64,000 bases of DNA. Origin: Brachyhypopomus gauderio (lineage: Eukaryota; Chordata; Actinopteri; Gymnotiformes; Hypopomidae). The stretch covers positions 329,501-393,500 of the forward strand of contig NW_027506900.1 of NCBI RefSeq assembly GCF_052324685.1. Direction: 5' to 3'. Made by a program: the position numbers and the translations under genes. Below are positions 6,823 to 55,800 of this stretch, piece by piece. The notes under the pieces are model-generated. The model was given only the letters and a program-made list of their open reading frames with translations, had not been told where the DNA came from and did no database searches. Position 1 is the first letter of the stretch, and every line of letters starts with the position of its first letter.

Positions 6823-6828
6823 TATAAA
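6823..6828 (+). promoter_or_regulatory. TATA box of ucma
   Basis: TATAAA sits in a GC-containing setting 37-42 bp upstream of the ucma ATG at 6865. This places the likely transcription start near 6850-6857 and implies a very short 5' leader. Inferred from position; no transcript data. Confidence 0.6.
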
Positions 6829-6864: not shown

Positions 6865-9800
6865 ATGTCGTGCATGAAGCCTATCTTGATCAGCTGCCTG
6901 GTTGTGCTGTTCGTCCTCACATGTGAGTATGACATACACGCTGCTGTCTGGGGGATGGAGAGTGTTTACTTTATTGTTTTACAACCTTCTTCCATACGCA
7001 ATACTTCTTTACTTCTGGAGTAAATGTTTTTGGTCCTAATAAGATGAACTATAATGATGTTCAGAAGAATGTGTCATGTAGATTTGATTTGCTTCATTAA
7101 GTCTTTCACATTGATTTATGGGTGGGAAACATTTGCTTGTTGGATACTTGTGAGGTTCTACATGATCTATTGCAGTGTTTCGTGAGGTGGACAGTGCAGC
7201 TCTGTCTGAAGAAATGAAAGCGGCACCAAAAGGTGACCAGAACACCTCCAACTTCACCCATCCTGAGATGATAACTGTAGTTTTATGCATCAGGGATCTC
7301 AGGGAGGAGAATAACTGAGGTTCTGAGATTCATGCAACGATGGAAGTTCTCTGTGGGTGGGAGAGGAAGAGTTTCAGTCCTTGAACCTTGACATATGTAA
7401 TATTTGTTTTTTAATTATCATGTGTATTACAGGTAGCGTAAAGGGGATCTTCATGCATGAGAAAGACGCCACCAACTTCTTCAGGCACCATGGCAGAAGT
7501 GCAGTGAAAGCACCAGAAGAGATCAATGGTGAGTTTGTTTATAAAGTTTCTGACAGGAGAAGTCAAGGGTTTGGAGTGGTGAGCATTTAATTCAGATGGT
7601 ATCATACAGGGTGTGAAAACCCAACTGTTGCTATAATGTAGATGTAGAACATGGAAGAGTTCTTGAGCTCTTGACTGGTGACTAGGTAATAGTGCTAGAG
7701 ACTATGTGCTTCTCTTACACGTCTACTGATTCACCAATTTCCTTGTTCCTTCATATTCTCTTCTCCATTTTCATGCAGCTGAGCAGAGTCTGAGGCTGGT
7801 AGCTGAAGAAAGAAAGCGAGAGTTCCATGAGGAGCATGGGAACGAGCTTGAGAGTTACGCTGAGGAAGACCACAATGGTATCACCGACTCTCTTGAAATG
7901 CAATCTGTCGGTCTACCGATCGATGTTCAGAAGAATGTGTCATGTAGATTTGATTGGTTCATTAAGTCTTTCACATTGATTTGTGGGTGGGAATCATTTG
8001 CTTGTTGGAAACATGTGTGGTTCTACATGATCTATTGCAGTGCCCCATGAGGCTGAGAGTGAAGCTCTGTCTGAAGAAATGAAAGCGGCACCAAAAGGTG
8101 ACCAGAACACCTCCAACTTCACCCATCCTGAGATGATAACTGTAGTTTTATGCACCAAGGATCTCAGGGAGGAGAATAACTGAGGTTCTGAGATTCACGC
8201 AACGATGGAAGTTCTCTGTGGGTGGGAGAGGAAGAGTTTCAGTCCTTGAACCTTGACATATGTAATATTTGGTTTTTAATTATCATGTGTATTACAGGTA
8301 GTGTAAAGGGGATCTTCATGCATGAGAAAGACGCCACCAACTTCTTCAGGCACCATAGCAGAAGGGCAGTGAAAGCACCAGAAGAGATCAATGGTGAGTT
8401 TGTTTATAAAGTTTCTGACAGGAGAAGTCAAGGGTTTGGAGTGGTGAGCATTTAATTCAGATGGTATCATACAGGGTGTGAAAACCCAGCTGTTGCTATA
8501 CTATTGGGGCAAAATATGGAACTGTTCCTGAGCTCTTGATTGGTGACTAGGTAATAGTGCTAGAGTCCATGCTTTGCTGTAGTCATACAATCTCAGGTTA
8601 CCACTTAAACACCTATAACTTGTTAACCTGCACCTGTCATATCAGAAAACTCACAGTACATACACTGATAACTCTTAGAATTCTTAGTTCTTTCATCTGA
8701 TAAATAGCAAATTGTGGCATTGAAATACACGTAGTTTTTTAATCTCATAACACAACAACTTTGATCAATTTGATGATAACTGATAATAACTAATTGTAAC
8801 CACAGAGTAAACACAGTTTTCCATGCTCACTCTTTCACTAGAAAGCTGTAGAAGTGTGATCACTGTTCACGATCAGACGCCCCAGTCTGAGAACATGCGC
8901 TCCTCTTACACGTCCACTGCTTCACCAATCTCCTTGTTCCCTCATATTCTCTTCTCCATTTTACTGCAGCTGAGCAGAGACTGGCACCTGAAGAAAGAAA
9001 ACGAGAGATCAGCGAGGAACAGAGGAACGAGTTTGAGAGTTACGCTGAAGAAAACCACAATGGTATCACCAACTCTCTTGAAATGCAATCTGTCTGTCTA
9101 CCGATCGATGTTCAGAAGAATGTGTCATGTAGATTTGATTGGTTCATTAAGTCTTTCACATTGATTTGTGGGTGGGAATCATTTGCTTGTTGGAAACATG
9201 TGGTTCTACATGATCTATTGCAGTGCCCCATGAGGCTGAGAGTGCAGCTCTGTCTGAAGAAATGAAAGCGGCACCAAAAGGTGACCAGAACACCTCCAAC
9301 TTCACCCATCCTGAGATGATAACTGTAGTTTTATGCACCAGGGATCTCAGGGAGGAGAATAACTGAGGTTCTGAGATTCACGCAACATTGGAAGTTCTCT
9401 GTGGGTGGGAGAGGAAGAGTTTCAGTCCTTGAACCTTGACTTATGTAATATTTGGTTTTTAATTATCATGTGTATTACAGGTAGTGTAAAGGGGATCTTC
9501 ATGCATGAGAAAGACGCCACCAACTTCTTCAGGCGCCGTAGCAGAAGGGCAGTGAAAGCACCAGAAGAGATCAATGGTGAGTTTGTTTATAAAGTTTCTG
9601 ACAGGAGAAGTCAAGGGTTTGGAAGGGTGAGCATTTAATTCAGATGGTATCATACAGGGTGTGAAAACCCAACTGTTGCTATAATGTAGAGGCAGAACAT
9701 GGAACAGTTCTTGAGCTCTTGACTGGTGACTAGGTAATAGTGCTAGAGACTATGACTTGCTGTAGTCATACAACCTCAGGTTACCACTTAAACACCTATA

Positions 9801-11940
9801 ACTTGTTAACCTGCATATGCACCTGTCATATCAGAAAACTCGCAATACATTCATTGATAACTGTTAGATTTTTTAGTTCTTTCATCTGACAAATAGCTAA
9901 TTGTGACATTGAAATACACATAGTTCTTTAATCTCATAACACAACTTTGATCAATGTGATGATAACTGACAATAACTAATTTTATCCAGAGTAAACACAG
10001 TTTTCCATGCTCACACTCCTTCACTAGACATCCGTAGAAGTGTGATCACTGTTCACGATCAGACGCCCCAGTCTGAGAACATGCGCTCCTCTTACACGTC
10101 CACTGCTTCACCAATCTCCTTGTTCCCTCATATTCTCTTCTCCATTTTACTGCAGCTGAGCAGAGACTGGCACCTGAAGAAAGAAAACGAGAGATCAGCG
10201 AGGAACAGAGGAACGAGTTTGAGAGTTACGCTGAAGAAAACCACAATGGTATCACCAACTCTCTTGAAACGCAATCTGTCTGTCTACCGATCGATGTTCA
10301 GAAGAATGTGTCATGTAGATTTGATTGGTTCATTAAGTCTTTCACATTGATTTGTGGGTGGGAATCATTTGGGAACCACACATTTGTGGTTCTACATGAT
10401 CTATTGCAGTGCCCCATGAGGCTGAGAGTGAAGCTCTGTCTGAAGAAATGAAAGCAGCACCAAAAGGTGACCAGAACATCTCCAACTTCACCCAACCTGA
10501 GATGATAACTGTAGTTTTATGCACCAAGGATCTCAGGGAGGAGAATAACTGAGGTTCTGAGATTCATGCAACAATGGAAGTGTTCTGTGGGTGGGAGAGG
10601 AAGAGTTTCAGTCATTGACGCATGTAATATATATGTATATGTGTATTACAGGTAGTGTGAAGGGGATCTTCATGCATGAGAAAGACGCCACCAACTTCTT
10701 CAAGCGCCATGGCAGAAGGGCAGTGAAAGCACCAGAAGAGACCAATGGTGAGTTTGTTTTTGTTGCTCTGGAGACTCAACTTGCCGTACCTGATGGCTGA
10801 TAAAGTAAACCCACCTGAGCTGCAGACAGAAGGCTTGGCTAATACTCCACTCCGGAAGAGCAGCCTTCACACTGCACCGTAGGATATGACGATTACAGTA
10901 AGATGGAAATGACTCAAATGGATCTATACAATCACACGTATTAAGAGGTTGGATGGGCTGTAAAACAGCACGCGGTGCATGAGCGGAGCAGGTGTTGCTC
11001 TGCTCTGCTGGGTCTGGAGGCAGTGGAGGAATGTGGTGGGTGCTAACCACAGTGGCTGGCAGGAGCCACAGGCAAACACGAGGAATGCAGCACTCAGATG
11101 TCAGCTAGTGTCAAAGGAGAAGCTACATATGCAGTTCATCCTTTGATTTAGCTTGTTTTGCCATAGATGCTCACATGATTCTGGTAGTTTCACCCTTCTT
11201 AAGTGGTCCACTACAAGTTCCTTAATGTTTATGTTAATGTGTATGTTAAATGTAAGGTCAAACATGAGGTGAATTGTCCATGCAACGTTATCCATGTGTA
11301 AACGGTTGCATCAGAGGCATGAAAAACACCCCCGTGCACAGATTTACAAGATTTTTTAAGTTTCTGACAGGAGAAGTCAAGGGTTTAGTGGTGAGCGCTT
11401 AAGTCAGAAGGTATCATACAGGGTGTATGATTTGCTGTAACCTATAAATTGTTAACTTGCATACACACCTGTCATATTGAGAAAATCAACAATACATTCA
11501 GTGATAACTCTTAGAATTCTTAGTTCTTTCATCTGATAAGTAGCAGTTTGTGGTATTGAAATACATGTAGTTCTTTAATCTTATCATTTTCATGCAGCTG
11601 AGCAGAGTCTGAGGTTGGCAGCTGAAGAAAGAAAGCGGGAGTTCCACGAGGAGCACGGGAACGAGCTTGAGAGTTACGCTGAGGAAGACCACAACGGTAT
11701 CACCGACTCTCTTGACAGTCTGTCCACCGATTGATATACTCGGTCTATGGATGGATCTGTAGATATGGATCTGTTCCACCAGCATCATGTTTATGCAAGC
11801 ACCCCCCCCCCCCTCTCCCCCCACCCATCGACTCTTTTTCAGAACTAGAAGAAAGTGGTCATGTGAAGTCGGAGCAGTGGAGGGAACTCCACTACAAGGG
11901 TGCCGAACAACATTATGAACACAACCGGGAGACCATTTAA
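6865..11940 (+). CDS. ucma: Unique cartilage matrix-associated protein / Gla-rich protein with four tandem exon 2-3-4 cassettes
   Basis: UCMA is a small secreted, gamma-carboxylated protein of cartilage matrix linked to mineralisation control (known). Exons: 6865-6922 (signal peptide, MSCMKPILISCLVVLFVLT); cassette 1 at 7176-7232, 7433-7528, 7779-7877; cassette 2 at 8041-8097, 8298-8393, 8970-9062; cassette 3 at 9224-9280, 9481-9576, 10156-10248; cassette 4 at 10410-10466, 10652-10747, 11598-11696; last exon 11843-11940 (EQWRELHYKGAEQHYEHN, stop TAA). All junctions are phase 1, so the exons sum to 1152 nt and encode 383 aa; human UCMA is about 138 aa from five exons. Each cassette carries the hallmark GIFMHEKDATNFF, a basic site, then a Glu-rich helix ending ESYAEE(D/N)HN. 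All acceptor and donor dinucleotides are intact. Identity is supported by the tail, the cassette motifs and linkage to camk1d. Whether all cassettes are spliced into one mRNA is inferred. A shorter isoform skipping whole cassettes would also stay in frame. Confidence 0.93.
7056..7921 (+). repeat. ucma cassette unit 1
   Basis: First copy of the tandem genomic unit holding exons 2, 3 and 4 plus introns. It begins in intron 1 at GATGTTCAGAAGAATG and ends where that string recurs at 7922. It is the shortest unit (866 bp), because its intron between exons 3 and 4 lacks about 300 bp present in units 2 and 3. Its basic site reads RHHGRS, with no arginine pair. Confidence 0.9.
7922..9106 (+). repeat. 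ucma cassette unit 2
   Basis: Second copy, 1185 bp. Its exon 4 belongs to the shorter 93-nt type (APEERKREISEEQRNEFESY), shared only with unit 3. Flanking intron sequence is nearly identical to unit 3. Confidence 0.92.
9107..10292 (+). repeat. ucma cassette unit 3
   Basis: Third copy, 1186 bp, one base longer than unit 2 and nearly identical by eye over exons and introns. This points to the most recent duplication or to homogenisation. It is the only unit with a canonical furin-type site, RSRR followed by Ala. Confidence 0.92.
10293..11733 (+). repeat. ucma cassette unit 4
   Basis: Fourth copy, about 1.44 kb. Its exon 4 is the 99-nt type of unit 1 (EERKREFHEEHGNELESY). The intron after exon 3 carries about 600 bp of unrelated sequence (10760-11356) and lacks another part seen in units 2 and 3. 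The right border is less clear because similarity to the other units fades after CTGTC.ACCGAT. Confidence 0.82.
10760..11356. other. Insertion in intron of ucma unit 4
   Basis: In units 1-3 the intron after exon 3 runs GTGAGTTTGTTTATAAAGTTTCTGAC. In unit 4 it breaks after GTGAGTTTGTTT and resumes about 600 bp later at AAGTTTCTGACAGG. The inserted sequence has no recognisable coding content, and I could not find convincing terminal repeats. It could be an old mobile element or filler DNA. Confidence 0.65.
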
Positions 11941-14257
11941 AAACCACTTTGCACGCTCTTCTACATTAGCAGAGAAAACTGTGCTAAGCCACAAAAATAA
12001 CTGTGTAATTATGCATTAAATCACTAGCATTCAGATTTGTTCACTAGAAATTTATTTGAGAGAGAAAATGGGCTGCAGTCCTTGTATTGAAGTGTGACTA
12101 ATAACATGCTGAATACACTGACTCTAGGACAATAATGCCAGCCCTTAAGCCCTTTAAGTGCTAGAAAACTAGAAAAATGTTACTAGAAAATGGCCCCTTC
12201 TTCAATCTTCACCAGGGCTTTTGAAGTGTATGATACTCACTGGGTTCCAAGCTATGTCTCCATCTTCTGGGGATGTTTCAAACAGCAGTTATTTATAATG
12301 GAGATGCAAAGGGAAGAGTCCAACCGGGCTTTTCCCAGTGTGTGCCCTGATTCACTAATGCCATCTGCAAAGAAGGAATTAGCGTGAACCAGACAAGTGG
12401 CAGGACAGAATCAATCATCATGCAATTCCTGTTCTTTCTATTAAAATCAAATACTTTTGTATATTTGCTCCTCAGCAGAGCGTGCAAGATACAACAGAAC
12501 AAATCACGACAATGCTCAAATTACGTATGCACATCAGCTGAATATATTGTGCAAAATATACGAAAATAAAAAGCTAACAACATACTGTGTCCATTGCCTT
12601 ACTTGCAAATACATTACCATTACTTAAATAAGAAACAAACAAAAATATCCAGTCTTCCAAATACTGACTACAAATTGTCAGTACTAAGGTCTGAATGTGT
12701 GTGACGGAGGGAGAGTCAAACAGGATCCATCAGCTTCGAGAGGGCGCTGAAAGAAGCAACACTTACCTGCTAAATTCAGAACGCTCCTACAAAGCCTGGG
12801 GAAAACAGCGGGACGCAACTGTGTTCATCTCTCATATTTCAATGAACACAACACACAGCAGCAATCGACACTGGATTACCAAATAATATACTGGAAAACA
12901 TTTGTGCAAACACAAAGCCCCACTTTTATTCAGATTTTTATTCTCTTGATGAAGGGTTCAATTTGCCTATGGAACAAAAAGCATTACAATGTACAGTTCT
13001 AATAAAAACATCTGAATATCCCCTTCCTGACAATTTATTATTAGATAAAAATAACTGAACTTATTATATGCTGCCATCCACAATGACTAAATGTACTCCA
13101 TAGAAAATGTATAAATTTCAGTACCATAATAAATATTGTAACCAAATAAATAAATAATCAAGAGTACATGTAAAAATAAGTAGATCCACTGACCTTCAGA
13201 AATACTCTCTTCAGGTAACATCTCAAGTCAAGCTTCATAAATTTGACACTCAAACACACCACAGTCTATATTTCTTTAACAATACTCACAATGGCAAAAT
13301 TAAACCTTATGTTTCAGTACTGCACAATTTCAATGGGACTAAGATATGAGTGCACACATGAATACACTAATGATAATCCAGTGTCTTGTTTGCCAAGACC
13401 AACGTTCCACCCACTAGAGTGTAATGGTGAACAAGGATCACTGTATATCTCCCTAGTGATTTGGGAAACAGCTTCCTGGCTGTCTGGTTAACTGTTTCAC
13501 TAAGCATACAGTATGTAGTCATGTAGTTTGACTAACTTGTTCAATGAATTACTATACCAATGAATTTATTACTGCTAACAACTATTAACATGAAGTTGAC
13601 ATAATTAAGAAATAAATAAACAATATTTTCTTATTTTGCTAGTAACAGCGCTTCATTATTGGTTTGTTGTTGAACATGTGACCACTCACACAACTGACAA
13701 AAAAAAAAAAAAAACGGACTCACAATGTAGGCCCAGGCCCAGTACACCATTATCATCTACATTTACATTTGACTTTAGAGGAAGCTGCTGTTCTGTTTGG
13801 CTGTCCAGACATAATGTGAGAAACCCATCTTCAACACACAAGGGTCCCCGTAATAATTCTATACGCAACTTTTCCACATTATGGACTTATTCGTAATCTT
13901 CAGTCTAATGGCAGCGTTTACATAGCCCATTTACTTTAGTGCATCACTTCATGAATAAGTCACACTAGCTGAACTCAGAGTTTCCAGATCAGTCGCCCAC
14001 AGATCCTCAACTGCAGTTCTGAGCTCTACCAGAGCCTCTCATCACACCTGCTGTTGCTTTCAACTCCTGAAAAAGGCCTTCTGGCCCAGTCCTGCAGACT
14101 AGGACGTTACAGAGCTGTGGACAGGCCAGGGACTGAACAGGGTGTGTAAACAGCAGAGAGTGCGTGTGTGAAGGTGACGTGACCAGTGGATGGCACAGAG
14201 GATGCTTTAGGAGCGGATCACTGCTGGTCCTGATGATGCTCCTGTAAGGTCGCGCCA
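11941..14257. other. ucma and camk1d 3' flanks (tail-to-tail)
   Basis: No coding exon was recognised. It should hold the 3' UTRs of ucma (plus) and camk1d (minus). Candidate ucma poly(A) signals are ATTAAA at 12015-12020 and AATAAA at 12565-12570. Much of 12900-13650 is AT-rich, and there is a run of A near 13700-13716. No other structure was seen. Confidence 0.5.
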
Positions 14258-24313
<10,056 letters not shown>

Positions 24314-27300
24314 TCAGGAGAAGGAAGCTGACAGGATGGCTTCGTGCTGTTGATTATGGAGGGTTCCTATGCCCACAGCTGGAGCAGGAAGAGCAGGACG
24401 ACAGACCACGCACAGCTGGGAGGACACATGACTGTTGAGTAAGGCACTGGGGAAGGGGGCAGCTCACTAACCCCCCCTCCTCAAGTAATCTGATACGACA
24501 CATTACAAGCTCAACAGCTGTAAGGTCAAGTGGAACAAGCAAAGATCAGAAGATGTTTCTCCAAACTCACCTTACAGGCCAGCTGTTTTTCAAATCTAGG
24601 AGACACAAAGGACCAGCATCCCATGTTCTGTGGCTCTTCCTGGCTCCAGATAAACTCTGCAAATGAGGAGTTAGAAGCTTTAAAAGTGTATCCAACTTGA
24701 TAAGCCAGCCATTCAGCTTCTGCTTTAAGCAGAAAAAGTTTTACGCATAAGATTTCAGCATGAAATTACAACCAGTTAATATAATGGAGATACTTAATGT
24801 TGCAGCATACATGCATAAAAAAATTATAGGATTGCAAAGTTTGCCCTGTATTAAAACGTGGGGAGAGAGGTCATTAGGACTTTTTCCGCATAAGTATGAC
24901 CAAGATCAGTGAACGTCTCCTTATATTGGTTTGGACCAAAGCTGTAAGACAGCATGCTGCAGGAATGAGGAGATAAGGCCTCACCTTTAGCGCTGGTGTA
25001 TTTAGATAGCTCCTGCTGCAGGGCCTCCATGGGGAAGGGACATAGTTCCTCCACTCTGATCAGCGCTGTGGTCCGACATGCTTCTGGCAGAACCTCCCTC
25101 TGCTTCAGGAGGGCGTAGAAGTGCTTGCCCGAGCAAAGCAGGACACGCTGCACGCTAGCTCAGCAGAGTAGAGGCAACTTGTCACTGACTGGAGTCTCGC
25201 ACTTGAACTCAAGCCGAGTGAAGCAGTTAGCCCTCCCACCCACTTCTAACAAAATGGGTTTCATCACCGCTCTGCTCACCTTTGAGGATTTACAGAGTCG
25301 TCACCAATTACAGGCTTGAAGGAAGTGCCAGGGCCCATCTCTTCTAGGCTTGACACTGCCCCCTAGTGTAAGAGAAGGAATAACACACAAGTAAAGGACA
25401 AAAAGTAAGTTAAAACCAGTGATCACTGTTGGATTTAGCAGGTAGGAAACTCACGGAAAAGCGCAGCAAAGTTTTGGGCGAAGCCACAATGAGGGGCTTG
25501 CGGAAGTCACGGATCATCTGTCTCCTCAGGAGGTGGAAGTACTGAGCTGGCGTTGTGGGATTCACCACCCCCATGTTGACCGTGTCTCCATCCACACCTT
25601 CTTCCTTACTGTCACACATCTACAGTAGGACAGAACACCACCAGCCTGGTCTTGGGTCTGAACTCAACACAGGGTCATGGAGAAGCATTAGTGTCCTGAG
25701 AAGCATGCACATGGGCGTTCACCTGAAGGAAACGCTCGATGCGGCAGGACGAGTGCTCAGGTCCTGCACCGTCGTAGCCGTGGGGAAGCAGGACCACAAG
25801 GCCACTCTGCAGAAGCCACTTAGCCTCACCTGCACAAAGTCAGTGTCACATCAATCACACAGATTCTATCGCTAAAACTGCCACGGGTTTCTAGCCCAGC
25901 ATGAAACTGTGGTCCATGCAGGCAATGATAAACACAAGCAACTGGCTGATTCTGGTTTATACGTAGGTTGGCTTTTTTTATTCACCTCCAGAGACAAAGG
26001 TGTCAAAGATGATTTGAGCTCCGTTGAAGAAATCTCCAAACTGGGCCTCCCAGATAGGCAGCAGTTTTGGTTGTGTAATACTCATGCCGTACTCGAAACC
26101 CAACACCGCCTCCTCAGATAGTGCACTGTTACACACCTGTTACACAGGGAAAAATAAAAATTAGAAAATTAATTAAATTTCATATGTATATATACACATA
26201 CCCCAAAATCAAAATAAACATTGTTCATTATCCACATGGAACTGGTTTCTGATACAAAACCAGAAATACTGGAAATACAATTCAACAGGACACACAGATA
26301 ACACTGCTGAGGTGACTAGTGTGATAATCTGACCTCCAAAAAGCCTTTCTGTTCAGCACTGATGTGATTGAGAGGGATGTACATGTCGTTGGACTCCTGA
26401 CACACGACCATGGCGTGCCTCTGGCTGAAGGTTCCACGGCCCACGTCCTGCCCACAGAGCCGCACATGGAAGCCTGCGTTGAAACGCACAGTAAAACCTC
26501 CGTGTCACAAATCCAGACTTTCTACATGCAGTAAAACCTGTTACGAATCCAGACTTTCTTCTGCCTCGGCCAACAGCGGTCCACTCCCAAACGGTCCCAG
26601 CTCCCTTGTGCCAACGGATGGCATTGAGTCTCATAACAGAAAGTTGTCATTTGGGATTAGCACGCAAAACGTGTTTAACTGTGCTGGAGAGGGAGAGAGC
26701 TTACCCTGGCAGAGAAGAGTGCCGAAAGCCAGGGCCTCGGCAGTGGACCAGTCCAGCTTGGTTCCTTCGCCAAGTTTCTGTAGTCTGGACTGCTCAGTGC
26801 AAGAAATCAAATTCAGTGAAATACTGTTAGCACCACCAACAGATGCTAAACAATGCATGGTCTGAAATGTACTATAACATATAGTTTCGAACTCTATGCA
26901 TCTCTTAATATTCTATATTTTCCACTTATAGCTATAAATCATCATCTGAATGCTCCTGGATTCATCAAAACAGCCATCCACTGCCTGACAGTATCAAACA
27001 CAGGTCATCCATTGTAGATGCATTGCAGCAGAAAACCACATCTTTTTAACTGACTTGTACTTAATACTGAATCCACTTGCCTGATCAACTCACCACATTT
27101 TATGATTGGCTTTTTAACAGCTACAACTTGAATGCATTTCACTTATGATTATATGACTATGTCAATAAAAAAAATACTCATCACATGAATTATTCAGTTA
27201 CAGACAAGTTTGTAGTTTTTAAAGGTTTGAATGTAAAACTGGTTTAAAGCAGAAGGATTCTGCATATAAATGCACACATACACATGCAGTCAGTAGACAC

Positions 27301-28772
27301 CTAGCAACCTCCCATTTGATCAGGGGAAGGGGGGGGGGGGGGAGGGGGGTGTTGTACCTGCACATGGGTCTTCCTCAGGTGACCATGCACCTGGATCTCC
27401 TCAGGTATGGCCACCGACTTGGCTCCCACAAACTGGAGCAGGGGAGCAGCCACACCAGTGTCCCACGACGAAACTCGGGCCTGGGGCTCCACGAGCCCTC
27501 CCCAGCGACCCTGAAGATTGGTGGGTGGAGGACTGTAGAAGGTCATGTTGGCTAAGCAGTCGTTGAGCGTGGAGTAGTAAGCCGTCTTGATCTGAGCACG
27601 CTCCTCCTCCGTCATGAGGCCCTCTGAGATCAGCTGGTCAGCGTAGGAATCAGGTATGCTCTTCCTTGAGCTGGGGGAAGTAATGGTAAAGATAGTAACT
27701 ACTTTACTGAAGACATGAGAGGCAGTGTGAAAGGGAGCAGGGAAGAGGAACATGCCAACATGCGTGAACAGATCTGGCACGCAGACTGGGAGTGTGAACC
27801 CACCGGATGATTTTGTACATGACTGGGTTTGTGAAGAAGGGCTCGTCCAGCTCGTTGTGCCCCCACTGGCGGTAGCAGAGGAGGTCTACTATAATGTCCT
27901 TCCGGAAACGTCTCTGGTACTCCACGGCCAGCCGTGTCGCTCGGAGAACCTCCTCTGCATCATCCCCATTCACGTGGATAATGGCACATCCCACCATCTT
28001 ACCTACAGCACACAGCAAAGAAGTCCATCTCAAGATGGCCATTTCGACCATCCAGTCAAGCACAAGCACTACATACTTTAGACTTTTTTTTTATTCTGCA
28101 GACTATTCACCATCATACTTTTATCTGTAAATCTATAAATGAGATATTTCCTACTCTGCCTAGATCAATCTAATACAGGGATGTCAAAGTCAAATACACC
28201 GAGGGCCAAAAAACCAAATTTGCTACAAGCCGAGGGCCGGACTGGTTCAATGTTTATTAAAACATATTGAAATGATTGCACATAGCCTATTGAACCAAGA
28301 CCTAACACAGTGTTTATTATTTAATGCTTAAATGAATAAAGTAATATTTTCTTATGGATCTGTCAGTAATTTCAAGTGAAAACATTTTTCAACAAGCAAA
28401 CAGATAAAAACAAACTTCCTTCAAAGAAAACATGTTCTGTACATTAAATGAAAAAAGTAATAAAGGTTTGAAAAGTGCTGGAATTTAGGCTAAAGTACTT
28501 GAAAATGCTTGAAATTGTAACTACTTCGTTTCACAACAAATATCTATCAGACTGAACAGTTCTCTTGTATTACGTTAACAAATACGAGCCTCTTGTAATT
28601 CCAGGACAAAACATGAGAACGTGAAGACGTTAAGATTGGGTGGTTTGAAAATAAACAACCATTAAATAATGTGAATAAAAAGCGAATTATTTCAAATCAT
28701 TTTGAATAGATGTTTAAATATTTAACTTTATTAAGATTAAATAAAGTTACAAATTTCGCAAAGTTACAAATT

Positions 28773-28836
<64 letters not shown>

Positions 28837-31800
28837 ATTCCTTTCAAGAATTGTTCTCTTTCAAGAATTGTTTTAATGCATCATGAATCACTGCCATTTC
28901 TAAGGAATATTTCTTTCAACATCCATATAAATGTTTGTTGAGAATACCTACCAACATCACTGCAGTACAAGGATGAACGACCCCTCTCAGAGGGAGTGGT
29001 ATATCCCACTTGATTGTTCACGATGAGGTGGATACTTCCACCCACTCTGAAGTGAGGTAGGTTGGACAGGGTGAAGGTCTCTGGCACAATTCCCTGGCCT
29101 GAGAATGATGCATCACCATGAACCTGAAAAGTGACACATATATACAGGAATACAGTTCAAGATGCAAAGATTACCCATAACAATTCACATTTCATGCATT
29201 ACTCTTAAAATACCATAACTTAATAAAAATCAACACCACAACAGTTTCAATCAATTTCTATGTAAATAAGGTGTATTGTAATTGACATAAATGTAATTAG
29301 CTACCTGTTCAATTGCTGAAAATGTCAAATCAAAATGTCAAATTCTCATTTACAAAACATCGCTAGGAATGCAGTGCAAACCCCTCTAAAAGTTTAAAGG
29401 AGTTAAAATGCTATGTTAACCTCCAGCACATGGAGGCTATAATTTGTCTCATCAATTATATGGCCATTCCACGAGCACATACAAGGGACACCTATAATAT
29501 GGAATCATGGGAAGCTGGTCACCTGTACACAGATGACCTTGTCTCCTGGCCGGGCGCCGCTGTCGCTGGAGTAGTCTCCATCCTCCTTCACCTGTTGCCG
29601 CCCACGCGTCTTGCCCTGCGTGACGGGGTTGATGGCCTCCAGGTGCGAGGGGTTGGGCAGCATGGTGACGTGAATCGGGCGCCCCACCCCCACGTCCAGC
29701 TCCACGGAGGAGGTCAGGTGGGAGAGCACGTCCCCGATGGAGGGAGACTCCTCCGGGAACTCGCTCAGGCCCCTCATCTTACGGAACATTAACTGCGGCA
29801 AAGCAGGAAGGGCATCAAAGCAGAACTGATGTAAGTGGTTCACGGCAGCAGGGGCACACGGGGAGGTTTGGCACGCTCCAATTACTGCACAATTACTTCA
29901 GGATAAATAATGGGGACACAGCCTAGCCGTGCCATTCACAGGACTCTTTGTTCTATGCTCTGATTAAGATGATGGTCACTCCACATAACTAATGGTGCTT
30001 AGGAAAAGCTGGTGGAAGATCAGGTATAAACAATGCATGAAAAAAGTACAATTTTTTTTGACAAAGTGTGTCAAGAAAAAAGCATTAATACAGGAGCAAA
30101 AGTCATTTGTAATTTTCTTCATAGACAGTAAATCTATGTTGTGAACTGCTGCGGACGTTCTCGGCCATCTGGGCTTGCTGGGGTTGCTCAAACTGGGGCT
30201 GCTTCTCTTTTTTGGTTCCCTTTTTCAAGACGATGAAAACTGGTCACGTTCTAAGGCCAATATTGATCCACGGTTGTTCTGAATTCATACAATTCTCAGA
30301 AAGAGAGGAACTTTGGAAGTTTTGTAATTTCTGTGCTTTTGCCGGCATGACATATACAGCTTTGAAAAAGTGCTCGAGTCTCTAGAGCAGGGGCACTCAA
30401 ATAGAAATGATGACGGGTCACTTTTTATTTTTTCAATCACTGGAGGTGCCAGTTACGGGGGGGGATTAAACTATAGAGGCAATCCTCGGCATCGTCTTGA
30501 GATCGTGGTGCGCGATTTCAAAATAAGAGCAGATAGCGCGATTGAAAAAAAGCAGCAATTCCTAAAAAAAAAAAAAAACAACACTTTTCAAAACAGCTTG
30601 CGGGCCAGAAATAGATGGTATAAGGGCTCTAGAGTCTCTAGGGGTTTAATGAAATCTCCTTTTATTTGAGAACTACACATGCAGCTAAACAGAGCCTCTC
30701 CCATCAAGAGCAATTAAAACATGTCAGACCCGATCTCCATCCCACTGAGGGATCCCTGCTGGCAACTGTAGGTGATAATGTGTTTTAATGTCTCAGCTTA
30801 CATCTTGTAAAATATGGCCACTATTAGTAAGCTAATGTCGTAGCTTACGTCTGGAGTAATATTTTCCCATGTGCCTTTACAATATTCATTATCCTGAGAC
30901 GAGCAGAGAATAATGTGTTCCAAATACATCTTCCTATATCGGACTTACTTACATTTTATTTTCAAGACTTCCAAAAATATTAACAGATTGATCTAAAGCT
31001 TTATCAATAAATCCATACATTTCCAACACACTTTCCAGACAGTATATGTTTTCACACTATTTTCTTCTGTTATAGAAGACACTTGTATTTGCAATACAAC
31101 TTTGATAACTGGAAATGCAAATTTGAATCCAAGTACAGGTGACAATGAACTTTAATGTATCCTGACACGATCCTATGCACCAGAGCCCAAACCTTGGTCA
31201 TAGTTCTCAAGGCTTTGAAAATCATTTGGATTAAACATTAATCCATTCCAAATACTGAATATGGTATTTGGAGCTCATCTAGGGGCTTTTGCAAAGGAAA
31301 GTTGTTACTGAATACAACAATACTAACTTTTACAGTTGTATGCAAAGGCTTGGGCACTGTTAGCCAAATATCATGGTTTTGTTTTTTGTTTATTGAGTAG
31401 TAAGTGCTGTCTTTGTAGCTAATCAAACATAACACAGTATTTTTTGTTTTTCTTTCAAAACAAACATACAAATAAATCTAAATCATCAATGCGGCCTAAG
31501 CAAAAGTCTGGACATCTTAGATTTAGTACTTAGTAACCCTTCTGACAGGAATCACAGCATTGAAACATTTTTAAGTCGTTTTTTTGTTTCTACTCTTATA
31601 ATTGAAATGTTTTGCACCCTTCTTAGCTGAGGGCCCATAGTGCATTCTGGGATTGTCTTGCACGCACAGCTACTTTTAAGACCTATCCAAAAATGTTCTA
31701 TGATGTTTAAGTCAGGGGACCGTAAAGACCATTGTAGAAGCTTCAGTTCGTGTCTCTTCACGTGGTCCATGGTGGATGTTTAGGTATGTTTTAGATCAGG

Positions 31801-35198: not shown

Positions 35199-36181
35199 GC
35201 ACACACACGCACGCACAAGCACGCACACATGCACACACGAGGGGAGGTCAAGCCAAGCTGCTCCTAAGCACTAAACTATACCTGGCCTTCATACAAATTG
35301 GATGCACACTCGGAACTTCAGCAAGCTACAAATGTACGGATCTTCTTTGAAGAGCGTGTGTTGTTCAGGTGCCGGGGAGCACGTTTCCTGGGAACGTGAG
35401 ACTTGCATTCTGTGAATGAACGGCCGTCTCTGCGCTCGCGACGTCTATTCCAGATTTTGTCCAACGTATCGCCGTTGAGCTCGACTCAAACCATCACTAA
35501 ACCGCGAACGTCACCTCCACTGCTCGACTGTCTCCGGGAAACTAAATAACATCAGTCCGTCAGTTGTGAACGCCTGAAAGAACGATAGTAGCTCAGTCAT
35601 CCGACGCATAAGTAAGCAATCACGTTCAGGACAAGAATCGATGTCGAGGGTGGTTCTAATCCTGCTCCTCAAAACAGGCTTTTAAGCCAAAGGAGGTCTG
35701 GTTTGGGAGGTGGGCTAAGAGAGGCGCGCTGGAGTGATGAGGAGCGGGCTGGTGACTGGCGCTGTCCGTCCAGCACCACCGACACTGTCACCTTGCGCCG
35801 CATCACACAACACACACAGGGCGCAAGACTCCCAGCTGCACCTCAATGTGCTTTTACTGTGAATCCATTCGTGCTGGTGATCGCGGACAGTAGCGCTGGA
35901 TGAGGTAGTTCTGTGTTTCTGTTGTCCTTTTTTTTAAGGGGAATCGACGTGGATTACGCGTTTAAATTGCACGCGAAAAGCACCAGCAGTACATGCGTGT
36001 ACTTTTTATACAATAAAATAGACGTTTGTTTTCCACTCGTTCATTTTCACAACTTTTAATCGAATCGATTTTGAACGAGCAATCTATCCATGTGTTGCAC
36101 AAGTCTCAGCGGTATCGCTTGTAGCTTTTCGAACCTGTAGTGATGCCCGGAGCCGATAGAAGATATGCCTAGGGCGACGCG
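34225..36181. promoter_or_regulatory. Shared divergent 5' region of dhtkd1 and kcnc1
   Basis: About 2 kb separates the two divergent start codons and should hold both promoters and 5' UTRs. A CT tract followed by a CA tract (about 35141-35220) lies in the middle. The kcnc1-proximal 800 bp is CpG-rich. No coding exon or clear TATA box was recognised, so the boundaries are inferred from gene positions only. Confidence 0.5.
35141..35220. repeat. Compound (CT)n(CA)n microsatellite
   Basis: About 40 bp of CT followed by about 40 bp of CA with CG variants, in the dhtkd1-kcnc1 intergenic region. Confidence 0.95.
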
Positions 36182-39100
36182 ATGGGCCAAGGCGACGAGA
36201 AGGATCGCATAGTGATAAACGTAGGAGGGATCAAGCATCAGACCTACCGCGGTACTCTGCGCACCTTGCCTGGCACTCGGCTTGCCTGGCTTGCCGAGCC
36301 TGATGCCCCGAACAACTTCGACTATGATGCCAAGATCGGGGAGTTCTTCTTCGATCGCCACCCGGGCGTCTTTGCACACATCCTCAACTACTACCGCACG
36401 GGAAAACTGCATTGTCCAGCAGACGTGTGCGGGCCATTATACGAGGAGGAACTAGCGTTCTGGGGCATTGATGAGACTGATGTAGAACCATGTTGTTGGA
36501 TGACATACCGACAACACCGCGAAGCCGAAGAGGCTCTGGTTAGCTTCGGCGGGGGAGCTCTTGATATTGGCCATGAAGAACCAGAGGCCGACGGTGTCGC
36601 AGAAGCTGCAGAAGGGGACGAGGGGGTTGAGATGACTCGGAGACTGGCGCAGGGAGACTCGCCCGACAACAGATCCGGCCGCTGGAACCGTTGGCAGAAG
36701 AAGATATGGGCGCTCTTTGAGGATCCGTATTCCTCGAAATATGCGCGGGTGAGTGTGAATGAAGCTCATTAGTACGCGATAGAGGGTGTGTAGAAATGTT
36801 CGGTGAATGGGAACATTCGTTTTCTAATGAGTATGTGACATACAAATAACTTTGAATCGTCCAATGCCTTTGAACCTCATCACAAGCTCATTAAGCACGC
36901 AATTCAGACGATGCTAAGAGCTGTCAAATCAGTAGCGACTGATTCTGAAGAGGCACACATCACCTATCAAAAGTTTCATGGCTGTACTTAAGTATCATAG
37001 AGTTAATTTGCGCACTTGTGTCATGCTTGACCCTGCGCATGAATGTGGAGGGTTAGTCATTTCACTGTTTGAACGTATTGTAGTTGTAAGACAGCATACG
37101 GTGGAAGCGTGGTGATAGCCCTACAGCTGGGTGCTCACAGCTGCACTTCCCTCCCAGAACATGCAGCCACAGATCATAACTCATTCACTTTGATGTGCTA
37201 CAAGCAGTCGTTTCAATCCCTGGGGAGAGACACTCACACTGTGGTGCCTCTCTCATTAGGCTGATTTAATTGTAATGTCCATGCACAATAGCTCCTCTTC
37301 CTGATATTACAGCATCACTCTCACCATGGGTCTGAATGTATTTTCAGCTCTTACACGCGTTTGGCAGTCAAGTTGAAATTGCTCAGTTCTCGGATGAAAA
37401 GCGCTGGCACTGGTTACACGCTATGGCAGGCCTCCAAGGTCCAAATAAGCTGGCTGTGGGAAACAACTAAATGTAGCCTACGAGAGGGTAAAAGAGAGAG
37501 AGGCAGACCATGTCAGAGAGACAGACCATGACGTGGAGAGCGTGATAGGGGGAGGAATAAAGAGAGGGAAGAAAAAGGAGAGAAGAGATGTGTGCAGTTC
37601 TTTCTCAGAAATAGCACTGGCCCAGGCTACTGATATCTGTTTCAGAATGATAGTGATGATGCTGAGTTCTGGATGGAGATGTTGGATTTATTCGGCTGTC
37701 TGGGGAAGTCCTGCTCCACTGCTGGGAGACAAACCTGCTTGAGATTTGTTGTGGCTGGGACCTGCTCAAGCACCGCCTTGTCTAAAATAACCTGTAGCAC
37801 GCTATAGAAGTCATCTTATACTCTTAGATACTAGAAAAGGCTCGTATTTCTAAATATTTGCTTCTAATTATGTTTGTAATTGCTATGCCACTATTTTATA
37901 TGTTCATGTTACTAACATATAAAATAGACATGGCTTTGGGGGACTAAATTAAGAGTCCCGCATTGTGTGTTAAGTAAGAAGTCTTATGGTCATCTTCCAG
38001 TCAGGTGGAGAGAATCGGGATTTTGCATCTTACATCAAATTTGTATTCAGAAGATGGAGTGTTTTTTAAACTCAGACTAAACGCAATGTCTTACCCCTCA
38101 GGGCTGAATGTGTTAGAGACCATGTACAAAAAATGGCTGCAATTCAACTGTGTATTGGCTGCAGATTGACATCCTAATGTCCACAATTTGTTGGTGGGGA
38201 TTCTGTTCTAAGGCTTTTCTCACTATGAAAGAACTGGGCTTAATGTGTTTTTCTGAGACAATTTAATTGTGTGGAGCTATTTTTAGACTCCCTCCATCAG
38301 ACTGTACATCTTAATTACATTACAACTTGACAACTCAATAACTCATTGCAATCACATTTACAGCATTGGGCAGATGTTCTAATCCAGACCAACTTACATG
38401 TTTATCAGGACAACTGTACATGCACTCCCTGGGTATCAAACCCATGACCTCTGTACTACTAATCACTACCATACTATTCCAGGGACATGCCCTACCAGAT
38501 CCATCACGTATTCTAATATCAGTGTATCTGTGAAGAAAACTATAGGTTTTTAGTGAGTATCAAAGCATCATCTGTGAGTGGTATGTTCATGAAGTCCAGC
38601 AGCAAACCCGCAATAAAAATGTTTCTTAGCAGAACTGTCTTGTGCATTTAAAGTGCTCAACAAAGAGCTCTACAACCGCTTTGCTCATGGATGATGCCTG
38701 GAGGGTAAACAGAGGGATTCACAGTAAGACCTAGTGATGAAATGATGCCAGAATAACAACAGTAGAGCGTCAGTGATAATGCCAGGCCATCATAGTAATG
38801 GAGAATTTGTTATTCTTATGTATGCTTTTCTATGGTCTGACATACACATGCCAAAGGTTTTGTTTTGAACACTATCATTTTTTTCTGTTGTCTTAATGTG
38901 CACAGGTAATGTTTTTGCAATCTGTGATTTGAATGACGGGGTCATTGTGCATCTGGTCAGGCTGTGTTTACAGAGGCCAGCTGGTGGGATATGTGTGTGT
39001 TGTTGATTGTATGTGGGCTTAAGAGTTGGCTGGTCCAGGTTTGTCTTTTCAGTAATTATCCTCCCACTTGTCACTCATTAGCTTGCCCGGTAGGAGAGCA

Positions 39101-39163
<63 letters not shown>

Positions 39164-39218
39164 GTGAGAGGACAGGAGCTTAACAGCGGCATTACATCAG
39201 TACACACTGCTCAGCAAG

Positions 39219-39259
<41 letters not shown>

Positions 39260-40453
39260 TACAAACTCACAGGCACACTCTTGCATATGTACATGCAGAA
39301 GGAGAAGTACTACGTTCAGAGACGGAGATTATATTTAACTTCCTAGTATTTCAGCCTGCTCCAAATGCACAACGTTCATATTCACTGTGGACATTTAGAG
39401 TCTATGATATGTGTAAACTTGTTGTCACCTTTACTGCCACAGCTCAGCACAGCGCAGCACATTATGGCCATACCTGCTGAGATCATCATTCTGGGGCAGC
39501 AGGGCGAAGAGCATGTAGTGTTGCATAAGGTGTGGCTCATCTAATGTTTTTATGCCTCACACTGTCATTAATTAGATGGTTAGGTGGGTTTAGAAAAGAT
39601 CCAATGACTTTATGACTATACACCCAGATGAAACTGCCTACAATGCTGATCCCCAGCATAATGATCAGATTAAAACCAACACATAGCATGCATGGTCAAA
39701 AAATTACAAATGGTTGAAATTGACACTAATCCACAGGGAGTCTGAAAGCTTCTGGCATGAAGTAATGAGACTGGATATCGCTTCTCCATTTGTGGAAGCC
39801 AAGAAGGAGAAGTGATGGTAATCACAAAACTCTGTTCTTGCCGCAATCAATTATTAACAGCATCTCTACTGTCTGTGTGGTTGCCTTGCAATAGTGGGCT
39901 GTAGAAACTGGCCTACACTTCTGAAACAGTACCTTGCATTTATCTGTAGCCTCTGTACACTCTGTACACTTATCGTCCTTTGAAACATTCCCTGCCATCG
40001 CTTACTTCTATTTTCATTGCTCATTCACACTTTCTCTATTTTATTTCATCCGATAATATGACCGATAATATAACCATTTTGCTTTCTGCCTAACCCCTCA
40101 TCTTCAACACCTCCTCTAGAGTTCATTTGTTTACCTCTGCATTCCTCCGAGGCCTTTCTTAAGCCGGGTGGCCGTCTGCTCTCCTTCTTTTGGTTTATGC
40201 CTTTCCTTTTCTCCATCCCCTCCCCCACACCATCCCTTCTACCCTTTTAAACCCTAATGTCCCTCTCTCTAGCTGTTCCGTCCCACTGGTTTCTCCTCCA
40301 GTGGGCTGACACGGTGCTGCCTTCACCGAGCTGCAAAGCCCAGCCTCCGACCAAACACGGGCTTTCTGCTCGGGCACAAAGAAGAGAGCTGATCCTAATG
40401 ACTAGTGAAAAGTGCCTATTAGTGTCGGTGGGTGGATTGGTAGGTGTATTTGT

Positions 40454-40492
<39 letters not shown>

Positions 40493-42977
40493 TGCGCTTA
40501 GTGCCTCAAACAAAACATCCTTGCTTCCCACAAATGACCATCAAACTCTGTTTGACAAAGTACTGGCTGACCTAGATATGAAGTGCCTGTTGAGGTAGAC
40601 TTTGTGAGATGCAGTGTATCGTAGAAACAGATGAAAACTGATCAGTAGATGACTTTCAAAGTATGGCTACTAGATAAGTGCTTGCATGGCAATGCCATCT
40701 TTGGAAACTTCATTAAATGTCATTATGTAATTATTTAATAGCTTTTGTCTGCCCATTTATTGCTAGTTAGAGTCAAATAAAAATGGACCTATCATACATC
40801 CCAACCTGAATGAACAACACAACTAACAAACAAACGAAATAATAATGCCTGATGGAGGATTATCTATTTCATCAAGTCACTTAGGCACAACTGCAGGCTG
40901 CAACGGCAGTTGAAAAGCACCAGTTCATCAGCAGTTGCAAACCGCCTGATCACTGGCAAGAGATCCACCAGCTTGTCCTCTCCAGAAATCCAACCCCCAC
41001 CGTTCGTACATGTTTACCTCTGATGTTCCAGTGGCGGAGGGATCAAAGCCTTACACTGTCCACCCCCTGAACCAGCACACAACCAGCCCAGGGTGACCGA
41101 CCTTGCAGGGGCAGTGTGCAGCTCCCTGGAGAGGGGGGGGGGGTTGCAGTTAAATTTAGCCCAGGGAGGTGGAGGGGAGTTGGGTTGGCGCCATTCTGCC
41201 ATCCTCCGCTGTCCTTGGGCTCAAGCGGTGACCTTGAGCTTCAGTGACAGTGGTGGTAGAGGAAGAGGGGCTTAAGTGACACGCTCTAGTTGACATGGCA
41301 GGATCCTGTTGCTCACAGAGAAACTGAAGAAGCAACACAATCCTGTCCCAGTTCCTTTAAGTTCTGCTGAAGCCATTTATGGGCAACTAGTATCAATGTG
41401 ATATTTATCCACGCTCTCTGTTGTCTGTACAACTGGGAGAATATGTTCACATTTAACACTGATGACTGATTTTGAGGATTTGATATTAAAGATGTGGTAA
41501 TATTCAGGACTATTTGCCAACCCCGCAGATAATTTCTTGTTCTATGCTAAATGTCTTTCTTCTCTTTTTTACACAGTGGATAGCTTTTGCATCTCTGTTC
41601 TTCATCCTGGTGTCCATCACAACTTTCTGTCTGGAAACTCATGAGGCCTTCAACCCCATAATCAACCGCACAGATATTGACATAGTGGACAACGTGACCG
41701 TGGAGCGTATTTACCCAGAGACGGAGACCATGGTGCAGCTCACATACATCGAGGGTGTCTGCGTTATCTGGTTCACCTTCGAGTTCCTCATACGAATCAC
41801 CTTCTGTCCCAACAAACTCAAATTCATAAGAAATGCACTCAACATCATTGACTTTGTGGCCATCCTGCCCTTCTACCTGGAGGTGGGACTGAGTGGCCTC
41901 TCCTCTAAGGCAGCGAAGGACGTGTTGGGGTTCCTGCGGGTGGTGCGCTTTGTCCGGATCCTGCGCATTTTCAAGCTGACGCGCCACTTCGTGGGTCTGC
42001 GGGTGCTGGGGCACACGCTCCGCGCCAGCACCAACGAGTTCATCCTCCTCATCATCTTCCTCGCCCTGGGCGTGCTCATATTCGCCACCATGATTTACTA
42101 TGCCGAACGCATTGGAGCCAACCCCAACGATCCTCGCGCTAGTGAACACACACATTTTAAGAACATCCCTATTGGCTTCTGGTGGGCTGTGGTTACAATG
42201 ACGACGCTCGGCTATGGTGACATGTATCCTCAGACGACCTCCGGCATGTTGGTGGGTGCTCTCTGCGCTCTGGCTGGTGTGCTGACAATCGCCATGCCTG
42301 TTCCCGTCATTGTCAACAACTTCGGCATGTATTACTCCCTGGCAATGGCAAAACAAAAACTACCAAAGAAAAAGAGCAAGCATATCCCTCGGGCACCCCA
42401 GCTGGGTTCCCCCAACTACTGTAAGTCGGCCATTAATTCTCCAAGACCCAGCACACACAGCGATTCCTGCCCTCTGGCCCAGGAAGAAGTCTCTGAGATT
42501 AGATACCAAGGTAGGATACCGAGTTGCTAAGAGAAAGTAGCTTACTCTGTAAGCCATGAAAGCTGGCCATTGCAAAGTAATATATGAGCAATCTACTGCA
42601 AGCTCTAAAAAAGCATGTATGGCTGCCCACACTATGTCATTACTCTAAATAATTTAATTAGCATTGATCTCAATACAAAGAAATCCATCAGACAACAAAC
42701 GTTGCCCCATTAAAATTTATTGCTTAATGTTAACGTTATTGCATAATGAAATTTGAGTTGGTTAGTTTGTTTATTCTATGTATTCTGTGACAATGGCCAG
42801 TCAACCTGACTGGGCCACCAAACAGGAGTTCAGTGACACACACTCAATGATCAGCAAGATGATCAGAGAACAGCACAGACACACACTCGGAAATCTGCAC
42901 AGACAAACACTCACCCGCACACACTCACCCGCACACACACGCACCTGCACACACACCCACCCACACACACGCACGCA

Positions 42978-52896: not shown

Positions 52897-55800
52897 CTAA
52901 CAACACAGTGCCATGGAATGGCCTGCTCCACAGCCAATAAGAAGAGGTTTGAGATTTGCGAGGGCGGGGATTAGCTGTGGTTGTATGATGTCACCAAAAG
53001 ATCCATCTCCACACATTCCATGCTCATTCCAGCCCCAGGAAAAGACCTGATTCTCTGGAAAAAAAGTTGTGTTTGACCACAGCAGACCACAGCACCAGAG
53101 AATCTGTTAATCATCTCATGCAGTACATTTTACAAATAGACATTGCTTATTAACATGAACTGAGATAAGACAACTCATCGCTGTATGCCCAAAACACATG
53201 TGAACCTTGTATGACCCAACAGGTATGTTATAATTCTTTTCTCCCCCCTCAGAACACAACCTAGTCATAGTGTCTTATAATTAGTGAACATTTCTTGAGT
53301 TGATTATGAGTTGGCCAAAAGACTAAAATTGACTTTTTTTCCTTCTGATAAGAACCAAACATGTGCATTATTTTTCTAATGACTAGGGGTGTATTCAACT
53401 AAGGATTTTCATAGTCGAATCTGATTCGTCAGCTTTTCCCTTTAGTCGACTAATAGTCGAATCGGGTTTATTTTTATTTTTAGCACCTTAAACGGGATCC
53501 CGTTCTCATTCAAGACTTTTTTCCTCTTCAAAGTAAAAACCTAAAACACTCAGATAAATGAATAAACACGGTAGGTTGGCTTTATTCAGCTTTTATTTAT
53601 TTACTTGTTTATTTTTTATGAAACGTTAGAGAACATTAACCGTCAGTGCGCATTGCGCATATAGAACTGTCAGACAGGCACTGTGCAAAATGTCAAAAAA
53701 TATTTTAAATAAAATATGCCTGCCTGAAAATATAAAAAAAAATTCTACACAACAGCAAAAAAGTATAAGGAAAGGTTCAAGTAACGGGGTTTATAAGCAA
53801 ACAACATCAAAAAATGTTTATAGGCCTACTTGCCGAGACGCACCGCGACGAGACGACACGACCGAAACAACAAAAAGTTTTTTTCGCCTTACGCGTTTTA
53901 AATGGTATGCCATGTTGGTTGTTGTCGTGCGAAATGAAAGACGTTGATGACATAACTCGCACTTTACTTTGTTTGATTCATCTTTATCTTTTTCAAAATA
54001 CTTTTGAAGTTTTTTAGTAGCCGTTATAATCTCGGCAGATGCTGCGTATTGTGTCGCGTGTTCAGCTCCGCTCGTTTGGATTGTGCAACTCATGGACGTA
54101 ATTTTGATTTCAAAAGTGGGGGGGACATGGATTCGTCGCTATTTAAATATTTGGTTTTAACCGTAAAAACTGGGGGGGGGGGGGGGGGGGGGGGATGACC
54201 AAAACCGGCTTTTGAAAAAGTGGGGGGGACATGTCCCCCCCCCCCCCCAAAATTACGTCCGTGGTGCAACTGCAGGGTGTGATTTATTAATGTGTAGTAA
54301 CGAAGATGCCTATTGTTAATGCGCAAACATCATTTAAAAATATTTATTAACAGAAATTAGGATGATTTTATTTCACAAAAGGCTATATATAACGAAAACA
54401 AGACATTTCATGTAACAACTAATGATTAGCAGCATCCTTGGGCACCACCATGCAGTTAGAATGGTACATTCGACTATGACGTTCATAGTCGACTAGGGGG
54501 TATAGTCGACTATAGTCGAATCAGAGACTATTGCAGGTCACCCCTACTAATGACAATTGTTTTACGATATTAAATATATGATCGTTAACATATTTCCAAG
54601 ATCAAGCAACAGCTGCCAACACTCATAGATTTGATCACTGAACATCAGGTTCGCTCAATAAGACATCTAGCTTGTAAGGGTTTGAGGTCTGTCAATAACA
54701 TCAGTGAGTAGGTGCTTAGAACATGCAAAGATGTTTTAGCTTAGTCATTAGGTTCCTTTCAACAGTATTCACAGTTATACTGATTTTCTTGCGTTTAATA
54801 AAAATGTGAGATCAGTACATGGCATTTGTAATGCATTTCTTATGCCGAGTTCACACTATATGATTTTAACCATGATCTTTCGCTCACAGTAAAGTCCGAG
54901 ATCTGAGGCAAATCTGATCACTCAAGAGCTCAAAAGTAGCCTGTTGATGTGTGTGGATTGTTCAAAAACTTGTATAGGGTTGTTTTCAAGAAGGAAGGTA
55001 TAAGAGGAAGGGTCAGCAGATATATCATTCAACCATAGTATAACACTACCGTAAACATCTAAGGGCATTATGAACAGCGTTGAAAGAGTGTACACGACAC
55101 ACATATGTTCTAAGGCTTGTGAATGCATGAAATGATTTATGCACAAGGCATGCATAGATCATCTAAATCTTGGGAATACATGAAATGCATGTAAATTCTT
55201 GGTTGGAAATGTATAATATCTGTATATAATCTTTGTCATTGCACATGTTCACTGTGACACTCACTAACCAATCAGAATCTTCTGGCTTTGTGAGTGAACT
55301 GTACTGGACTCGGACACTTTAAAGCCGCCCAGCCTGTGGGTGTGGTCAAGCATGCACCACTACTGAAACACGTGCCATGGCAACACTGTTATATAACCAC
55401 TCTTGTTGCCACAGCAACCAAAAGTGAGCTTGCTTTCGCAAGGCAAACTCATTTTCTCAGATTTGTTCGCCCTCTCCCTTCACGCATGCTCTAAGTGATG
55501 CATTCCAGTGCGTTATTCATTCCTGCGTACTCACACAGAAGAGCGATCCAGGTTCCCAAAAATCTAATAATAAAAGTGTTTGTCCATTTTTAGATGTACT
55601 CTTACAGGATGCAATTATAGTGGAATAAAAGAGCACAGGGAGGCAGGAGTCAAGCTGCTTCACCGAATTAAGGGAGACTACTTAATAAAGAAACAGGCTA
55701 CAGTAGTACAATTCACTTAACAATAGAGCAGTACCCAGGCACTGATAGAAAGTATTCTGCTGTTCCCATAGCAACAAACCTATGGACCATGGCAACATAT

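Follow-up and report, generated by a model that had tools for sequence, protein, structure and literature searches.

The expanded ucma gene

The window analysed here, a stretch of 64,000 nucleotides (nt) from the gymnotiform fish Brachyhypopomus gauderio (assembly GCF_052324685.1, contig NW_027506900.1, positions 329,501 to 393,500, forward strand), contains a ucma gene in which exons 2, 3, and 4 form a cassette that is repeated in tandem. On the plus strand, 14 coding exons were modeled. Exon 1 (6865-6922) and the last exon (11843-11940) are each present once, and between them, at 7176-11696, lie four cassettes of exons 2, 3, and 4. Every one of the 13 introns is of the GT...AG kind and in phase 1 by exon lengths, and the joined coding sequence of 1152 nt encodes 383 residues and a stop codon, with no internal stop. 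An earlier, sequence-only reading of the window had described four sets of three homologous exons with intact splice sites, phase 1 junctions, and an uninterrupted frame of this length; both the gene model and repeat finding bear out the four sets, and all 13 introns bear out the rest. Separate tandem genes were considered and rejected, because exons 1 and 5 each occur just once.

A TATA-box-like TATAAA (6823-6828) ends 37 bases upstream of the start-codon A. Exon 1 carries the start codon and most of the hydrophobic leader (MSCMKPILISCLVVLFVLT), and the N-terminus of the 383-residue protein is hydrophobic as judged by eye. Exon 2 is 57 nt long in modules 1 to 4 (7176-7232, 8041-8097, 9224-9280, and 10410-10466), and exon 3 is 96 nt long (7433-7528, 8298-8393, 9481-9576, and 10652-10747), encoding in each module an ATNF docking motif and a basic motif. 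Exon 4 is 99 nt in module 1 (7779-7877) and module 4 (11598-11696), where it encodes a Glu-rich region of type A (HEEHGNELE), and 93 nt with a 6-nt in-frame gap in module 2 (8970-9062), where it encodes type B (SEEQRNEFE); exon 4 of module 3 (10156-10248) is identical to that of module 2. Thus the modules contribute 252, 246, 246, and 252 nt of coding sequence.

The introns from module to module (7878-8040, 9063-9223, and 10249-10409) are 163, 161, and 161 nt long, each with the start of intron 4 fused to the end of intron 1, and the last intron, from the final exon 4 to the last exon, is 146 nt long. Intron 3 varies more, being 250, 576, 579, and 850 nt in the successive copies. The last exon, of 98 nt, encodes the C-terminus SEQWRELHYKGAEQHYEHNRETI and holds the stop codon, and a possible polyadenylation signal AATAAA follows at 12565-12570, with ATTAAA also at 12015 and 12440. 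Because all internal exons are symmetric in phase (1-1), any exon skipping stays in frame.

The Pfam UCMA profile (PF17085) matched the 383-residue protein in four stretches (E 1.4e-93, 310.4 bits with a cut-off of 27.6), and each of two single-module versions tested matched the whole 134-position profile. These matches support the earlier identification of the gene as ucma and, together with the open frame, its proposed capacity to encode several domains. Pfam matches to CI-B14_5a and DUF4170 in the same protein were below their cut-offs, with no stretch passing alone, and were rejected. Where a standard UCMA gene has five coding exons and one module, 14 exons and four modules were found here with exons 1 and 5 single; the locus is a variant of the UCMA family, not a standard member.

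The motif by which substrates dock to the carboxylase has the form AxxF, and ATNF occurs at residues 51, 135, 217, and 299. In a published description the motif is given as ANxF (PMC8006282; papers are cited by PubMed Central number throughout, from excerpts of their text). Each of the four Glu-rich regions, 40-42 residues long, contains 12 Glu in identical columns. Two column tests, both picked after inspection of the alignment and thus post hoc, and with copies 2 and 3 nearly one sequence, gave P 0.025 for the invariance of Glu columns (12 of 12 invariant, with 9 of 28 other ungapped columns variable) and P 1.7e-4 for the clustering of exon 3 variation, in which the six residues of the basic motif account for five of the six variable columns.

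The basic motif is in fact different in each module, reading RHHGRS, RHHSRR, RRRSRR, and KRHGRR from module 1 to 4. By motif match, RxxR occurs only in modules 3 and 4 (once, as RHGR, in module 4), and the stricter Rx[KR]R only in module 3, where it is the sole one of the 383-residue protein. The predicted mature part of module 4 has 74 residues. UCMA precursors are cleaved by furin-like proteases (PMC13204790, PMC8430550). Since the cleavage motifs differ, the modules may be processed differently, and a four-module product may end up as several fragments instead of working as a single chain. Seven sites near the start of exon 2 set copy 1 apart from all others, perhaps because module 1 adjoins the leader and internal modules would not need that function.

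The second UCMA locus and the genomic setting

When the genome (796.5 Mb in 840 contigs) was searched with the UCMA profile, one other locus scored above the cut-off, on contig C5, with three exons matched. Weak matches on contig C7 (E 2.23, with one stop and below the cut-off) and contig C17 (E 2.06) were set aside. The second gene (C5:3498094-3500704) has five exons of 58, 72, 96, 99, and 98 nt, in phase 1 throughout as in the expanded gene, and encodes 140 residues with one ASNF, one RARR, and a 74-residue remainder as predicted mature part. It differs from the expanded gene in having a single module, an exon 2 of 72 rather than 57 nt, the RARR motif, and a PhyH-domain fragment upstream. 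On the other hand, exons 1, 3, 4, and 5 have equal lengths in the two genes (exon 4 as in modules 1 and 4), and therefore the expanded gene amounts to an ordinary UCMA gene with three additional cassettes. The five-exon form that the sequence-only reading took as normal agrees both with this locus and with the published gene, which has five coding exons (PMC13204790). Stray fish UCMA sequence was also looked for in viral contigs, where none of six pattern matches was a relative by tblastn.

The window lies within a contig of 1,443,763 bases. Fragments on the minus strand represent an aromatic amino acid lyase (2693-2944) and a 2-oxoglutarate-dehydrogenase-type E1 gene (24854-29156); the plus strand carries, at 36173-42527, a gene for a channel with ion-transport and BTB domains. 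In the 10 kb beyond the right end of the window are exons for RCC1 repeats and for a biopterin hydroxylase (Biopterin_H). According to a survey of ray-finned fishes, ucmab adjoins sergef and tph1a (PMC6470480). The setting found here agrees at the domain level, the RCC1 and hydroxylase genes being known by domain only, and because these neighbors fit the published setting the expanded gene is most likely the teleost ucmab copy.

No Pfam match was obtained for 5 of 10 and 5 of 8 neighbor fragments in the two sets tested, among them the one at 58776-59039, which had been read by eye as RCC1-like. A BED zinc-finger fragment at 53821-54138 on the minus strand possibly derives from a DNA transposon. 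Separately, L031:8860-9617 translates in several frames as repeated units like VWTTRMDHTYGPH, an apparent tandem repeat by eye.

Copies, junctions, and history of the array

Repeat finding with a 300-nt reference copy recovered the three others at 95%, 98%, and 83% identity, far beyond chance, and the stretch from exon 2 through intron 2 to exon 3 was likewise found in four copies with start-to-start spacings of 865, 1183, and 1186 nt. When 390 nt of the cassette (8016-8405) were compared with the fish's own genome, with only the best candidates scored, four matches were obtained, all within the array. All three unit junctions read ACCGATCGATGTTCAG, in which intron 4 (CCACCGATTGAT) runs directly into intron 1 (AATGATGTTCAG) at one common breakpoint, and the two introns share 3-4 nt at this point. 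The simplest reading of the array would be one founding event followed by amplification by unequal exchange. The founding duplication would have occurred at the 3-4 nt microhomology, and the array so amplified would have been partly homogenized by gene conversion.

Noncoding divergence between copies ranges from 4.5% (copies 2 and 3) to 11.4% (copies 3 and 4). Copies 2 and 3 closely resemble each other, with exon 4 identical and exon 2 identical at 56 of 57 positions. In exon 4, 11 sites group copies 1 and 4 against copies 2 and 3, and elsewhere it is usually copy 4 or copy 1 that stands alone, although many intron 3 columns in this count are unreliable because of a long private block in copy 4. 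The exon 4 types are thus out of step with the flanking introns (e.g., at 7779-7886), and gene conversion around exon 4 is the likely cause of the mosaic.

The private block of copy 4 lies in intron 3 at 10757-11345. Its 589 nt matched only their own place in the genome, in a search that skips very common words. A transposon insertion there was considered and is unsupported given the single genome match, although the skipping of common words means that a high-copy repeat is possible. Perhaps the block is part of the original intron 3 that the other copies have lost.

Interpretation and known systems

We consider the gene to be a teleost ucmab with an intragenic tandem array of exons 2-4 that would be serially spliced into one messenger RNA (mRNA) for a 383-residue, multi-module, vitamin K-dependent proprotein, and give this reading a probability of roughly 0.58. 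The array, its frame, and its family are features of the sequence itself; transcription, splicing, carboxylation, cleavage, and function of a four-module product are what these features would predict. All modules would be transcribed from the single upstream promoter, and serial splicing over the short introns would yield one long mRNA for a secreted proprotein. The secreted chain would then present to the carboxylase four ATNF docking motifs, with a basic motif and a region of 12 Glu after each. If cut at modules 3 and 4, the chain would yield from module 4 a classic 74-residue mature Gla-rich protein (GRP), and the remaining products would be longer fragments with one or two Gla regions whose docking sequences are not cleaved off. 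This product set appears most likely because only modules 3 and 4 keep RxxR. In cartilage matrix, such fragments would raise the valency of calcium or mineral binding; in zebrafish, chondrocytes express ucmab, and the protein has been detected in skeletal matrix (PMC3946537).

A further form of the proposal treats the gene as encoding a vitamin K-dependent polyprotein with four docking sites, four Gla regions, and cleavage sites tuned per module: modules 1 and 2 would have lost theirs, module 3 would keep a canonical one, and module 4 a minimal one. A single gene would then supply the classic 74-residue GRP as well as multivalent Gla chains that retain their propeptides. We offer this form tentatively, as a possible but rather doubtful one.

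In favor of the serially spliced proprotein are the intact frame, phases, and splice dinucleotides, the UCMA match in four stretches, the ordinary C5 gene with its matching exon lengths and 74-residue predicted mature part, the uniform junctions, the noncoding divergence of the copies, the scarcity of coding gaps, the low intact fractions in neutral simulations that count indels, the preponderance of synonymous changes in exon 4 of copies 1 and 4, both column tests, and the zebrafish expression. Several other observations weigh against it, among them the exon 4 donors and the cleavage motifs. The consensus of splice donors has G at +5, and by that consensus gtatca is weak. The donors at 7878, 9063, 10249, and 11697 all read gtatcacc, whereas the exon 4 donor of the C5 paralogue reads gtgagacc, so that the exon 4 donor of the expanded gene may be weakened (gtatca vs gtgaga). 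Differential cleavage of the modules, for its part, is predicted from motifs only. The remaining points against it concern selection on the modules, which is likely but not proven. Taken overall, the exons have diverged by 1.2-11.0%, no less than the noncoding sequence. One gap block (6 nt, in frame) is present in 252 coding columns vs 19 in 1546 noncoding columns, but with 3 expected from the noncoding density the single coding gap is not significant alone. A deficit of amino-acid changes was examined by a permutation test that holds substitution types fixed. For whole modules, P is 0.06-0.11 for the pairs 1/4, 2/4, and 3/4, which is suggestive only, and at least 0.24 for 1/2, 1/3, and 2/3. 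For exon 4 alone, P is 0.04-0.11 for 2/4 and 3/4 and 0.065-0.072 for 1/4, a pair with five synonymous changes and one nonsynonymous change; Nei-Gojobori ratios look strong for this pair, but permutation brings P to ~0.07.

Neutral decay was simulated in 4000 runs each, scored for all four modules being open and spliceable. Branch lengths and indel sizes were taken from the noncoding alignments, a present copy served as the ancestor, and gene conversion was not included; the copy 4 branch is shorter in coding sequence (0.034 vs 0.078), and the noncoding-derived branches were those used. At estimated rates, all modules were intact in 0.18%, 0.05%, and 0.05% of runs for three choices of ancestor. 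The intact fraction increases to 0.55% with half the indel rate and to 3.3% when all rates are lowered as well. With substitutions only, which again counts against the proprotein, the modules are left intact in 4.6-5.4% of runs, or 12.7% at lowered rates.

The array could be real and transcribed and yet be spliced mostly by skipping of cassettes or exons, so that UCMA of ordinary size with a single module would be the main product, and in-frame isoforms with between one and four modules would arise as side products or under regulation. We judge this unlikely, but it is a serious rival because the exon 4 donors may be weak and UCMA is alternatively spliced elsewhere: such transcripts are described in mouse, zebrafish, and human, the human ones lacking either exon 3 alone or both exon 2 and exon 3 (PMC4052551). 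Phase symmetry of every internal exon would keep the frame in each isoform, and the exon 2 donors (gtgacc), like those of exon 4, have no G at +5. Against skipping, the inter-module introns are short and close in length to the last intron, and the acceptors are identical or nearly so among copies, both of which would favor serial inclusion; moreover, the invariant Glu positions in all modules would be unexplained if most modules were skipped.

The expansion could instead be neutral or decaying, with the second UCMA locus doing the job and the frame open only through youth or gene conversion. This is quite improbable in our view, although the genome does carry a normal paralogue, module 1 has lost its cleavage motif, exons have diverged overall as noncoding sequence has, the permutation tests are not decisive, and 4.6-12.7% of neutral runs stay intact with indels ignored, in a simulation that has no gene conversion. 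When indels are counted, only 0.05-3.3% of neutral runs stay intact, the Glu positions and ATNF are invariant, and the TATA-like box, leader, and exon 5 are all present. That haplotype copies or misjoined reads were stacked in tandem by the assembler is very improbable. A single assembly was available, and such stacking would fit the close resemblance of copies 2 and 3, but misassembly is argued against because the copies diverge by 4.5-11.4% in noncoding sequence within a 1.44-Mb contig; in addition, the copies carry indels of their own, their intron 3 varies in length, and the cassette search gave no match outside the array of ~5 kb.

The four-cassette ucma is real; the UCMA family is known and its repeated form is new, and the gene is of interest mainly if the long protein is made. 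Among the matches listed in open-access literature, as seen in excerpts, no description of a repeated UCMA cassette was found, and open-access text searches returned no paper on proteins with several Gla domains or on duplicated exons with a Gla domain. A natural four-module UCMA, if true, could show whether a chain with several docking sites can be processed by the carboxylase and whether mineral binding in cartilage depends on Gla valency, and could inform UCMA function with the single-module C5 paralogue as a same-genome control. To our knowledge, most vitamin K-dependent proteins have one docking site and one Gla domain, with periostin as a possible exception. Periostin has been reported to depend on vitamin K and to carry one carboxylase-recognition motif per fasciclin domain, of which it has four; this may be a precedent for more than one docking site in a chain.

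The expanded gene shares with vertebrate single-module UCMA/GRP the Pfam family and the order of leader, docking motif, basic motif, and Glu-rich region, and the predicted mature part of module 4 equals in length the 74 residues reported for sturgeon GRP (PMC4052551). It differs in having 14 exons, 383 residues, and four Glu-rich regions instead of the five exons and about 135-138 residues of the known form (PMC13204790, PMC8430550). Teleost periostin is likewise a matrix protein with a variable number of exons carrying an in-frame repeat, but its 13-residue repeats are confined to exon sequence (PMC2824660), whereas three-exon cassettes including introns are repeated here. The nearest published parallel found, in the excerpts seen, is Bgp (osteocalcin) of the small-spotted catshark, also a gene for a vitamin K-dependent skeletal protein, which has 13 exons, of which 3, 5, and 7 code for very similar sequence (PMC8006282). 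Its repeats lie between the leader and the docking site and have no predicted domain, and they are followed by a single putative docking site and a single Gla domain (PMC8006282), while in the expanded ucma the docking motif, the cleavage motif, and the Glu-rich region are all repeated.

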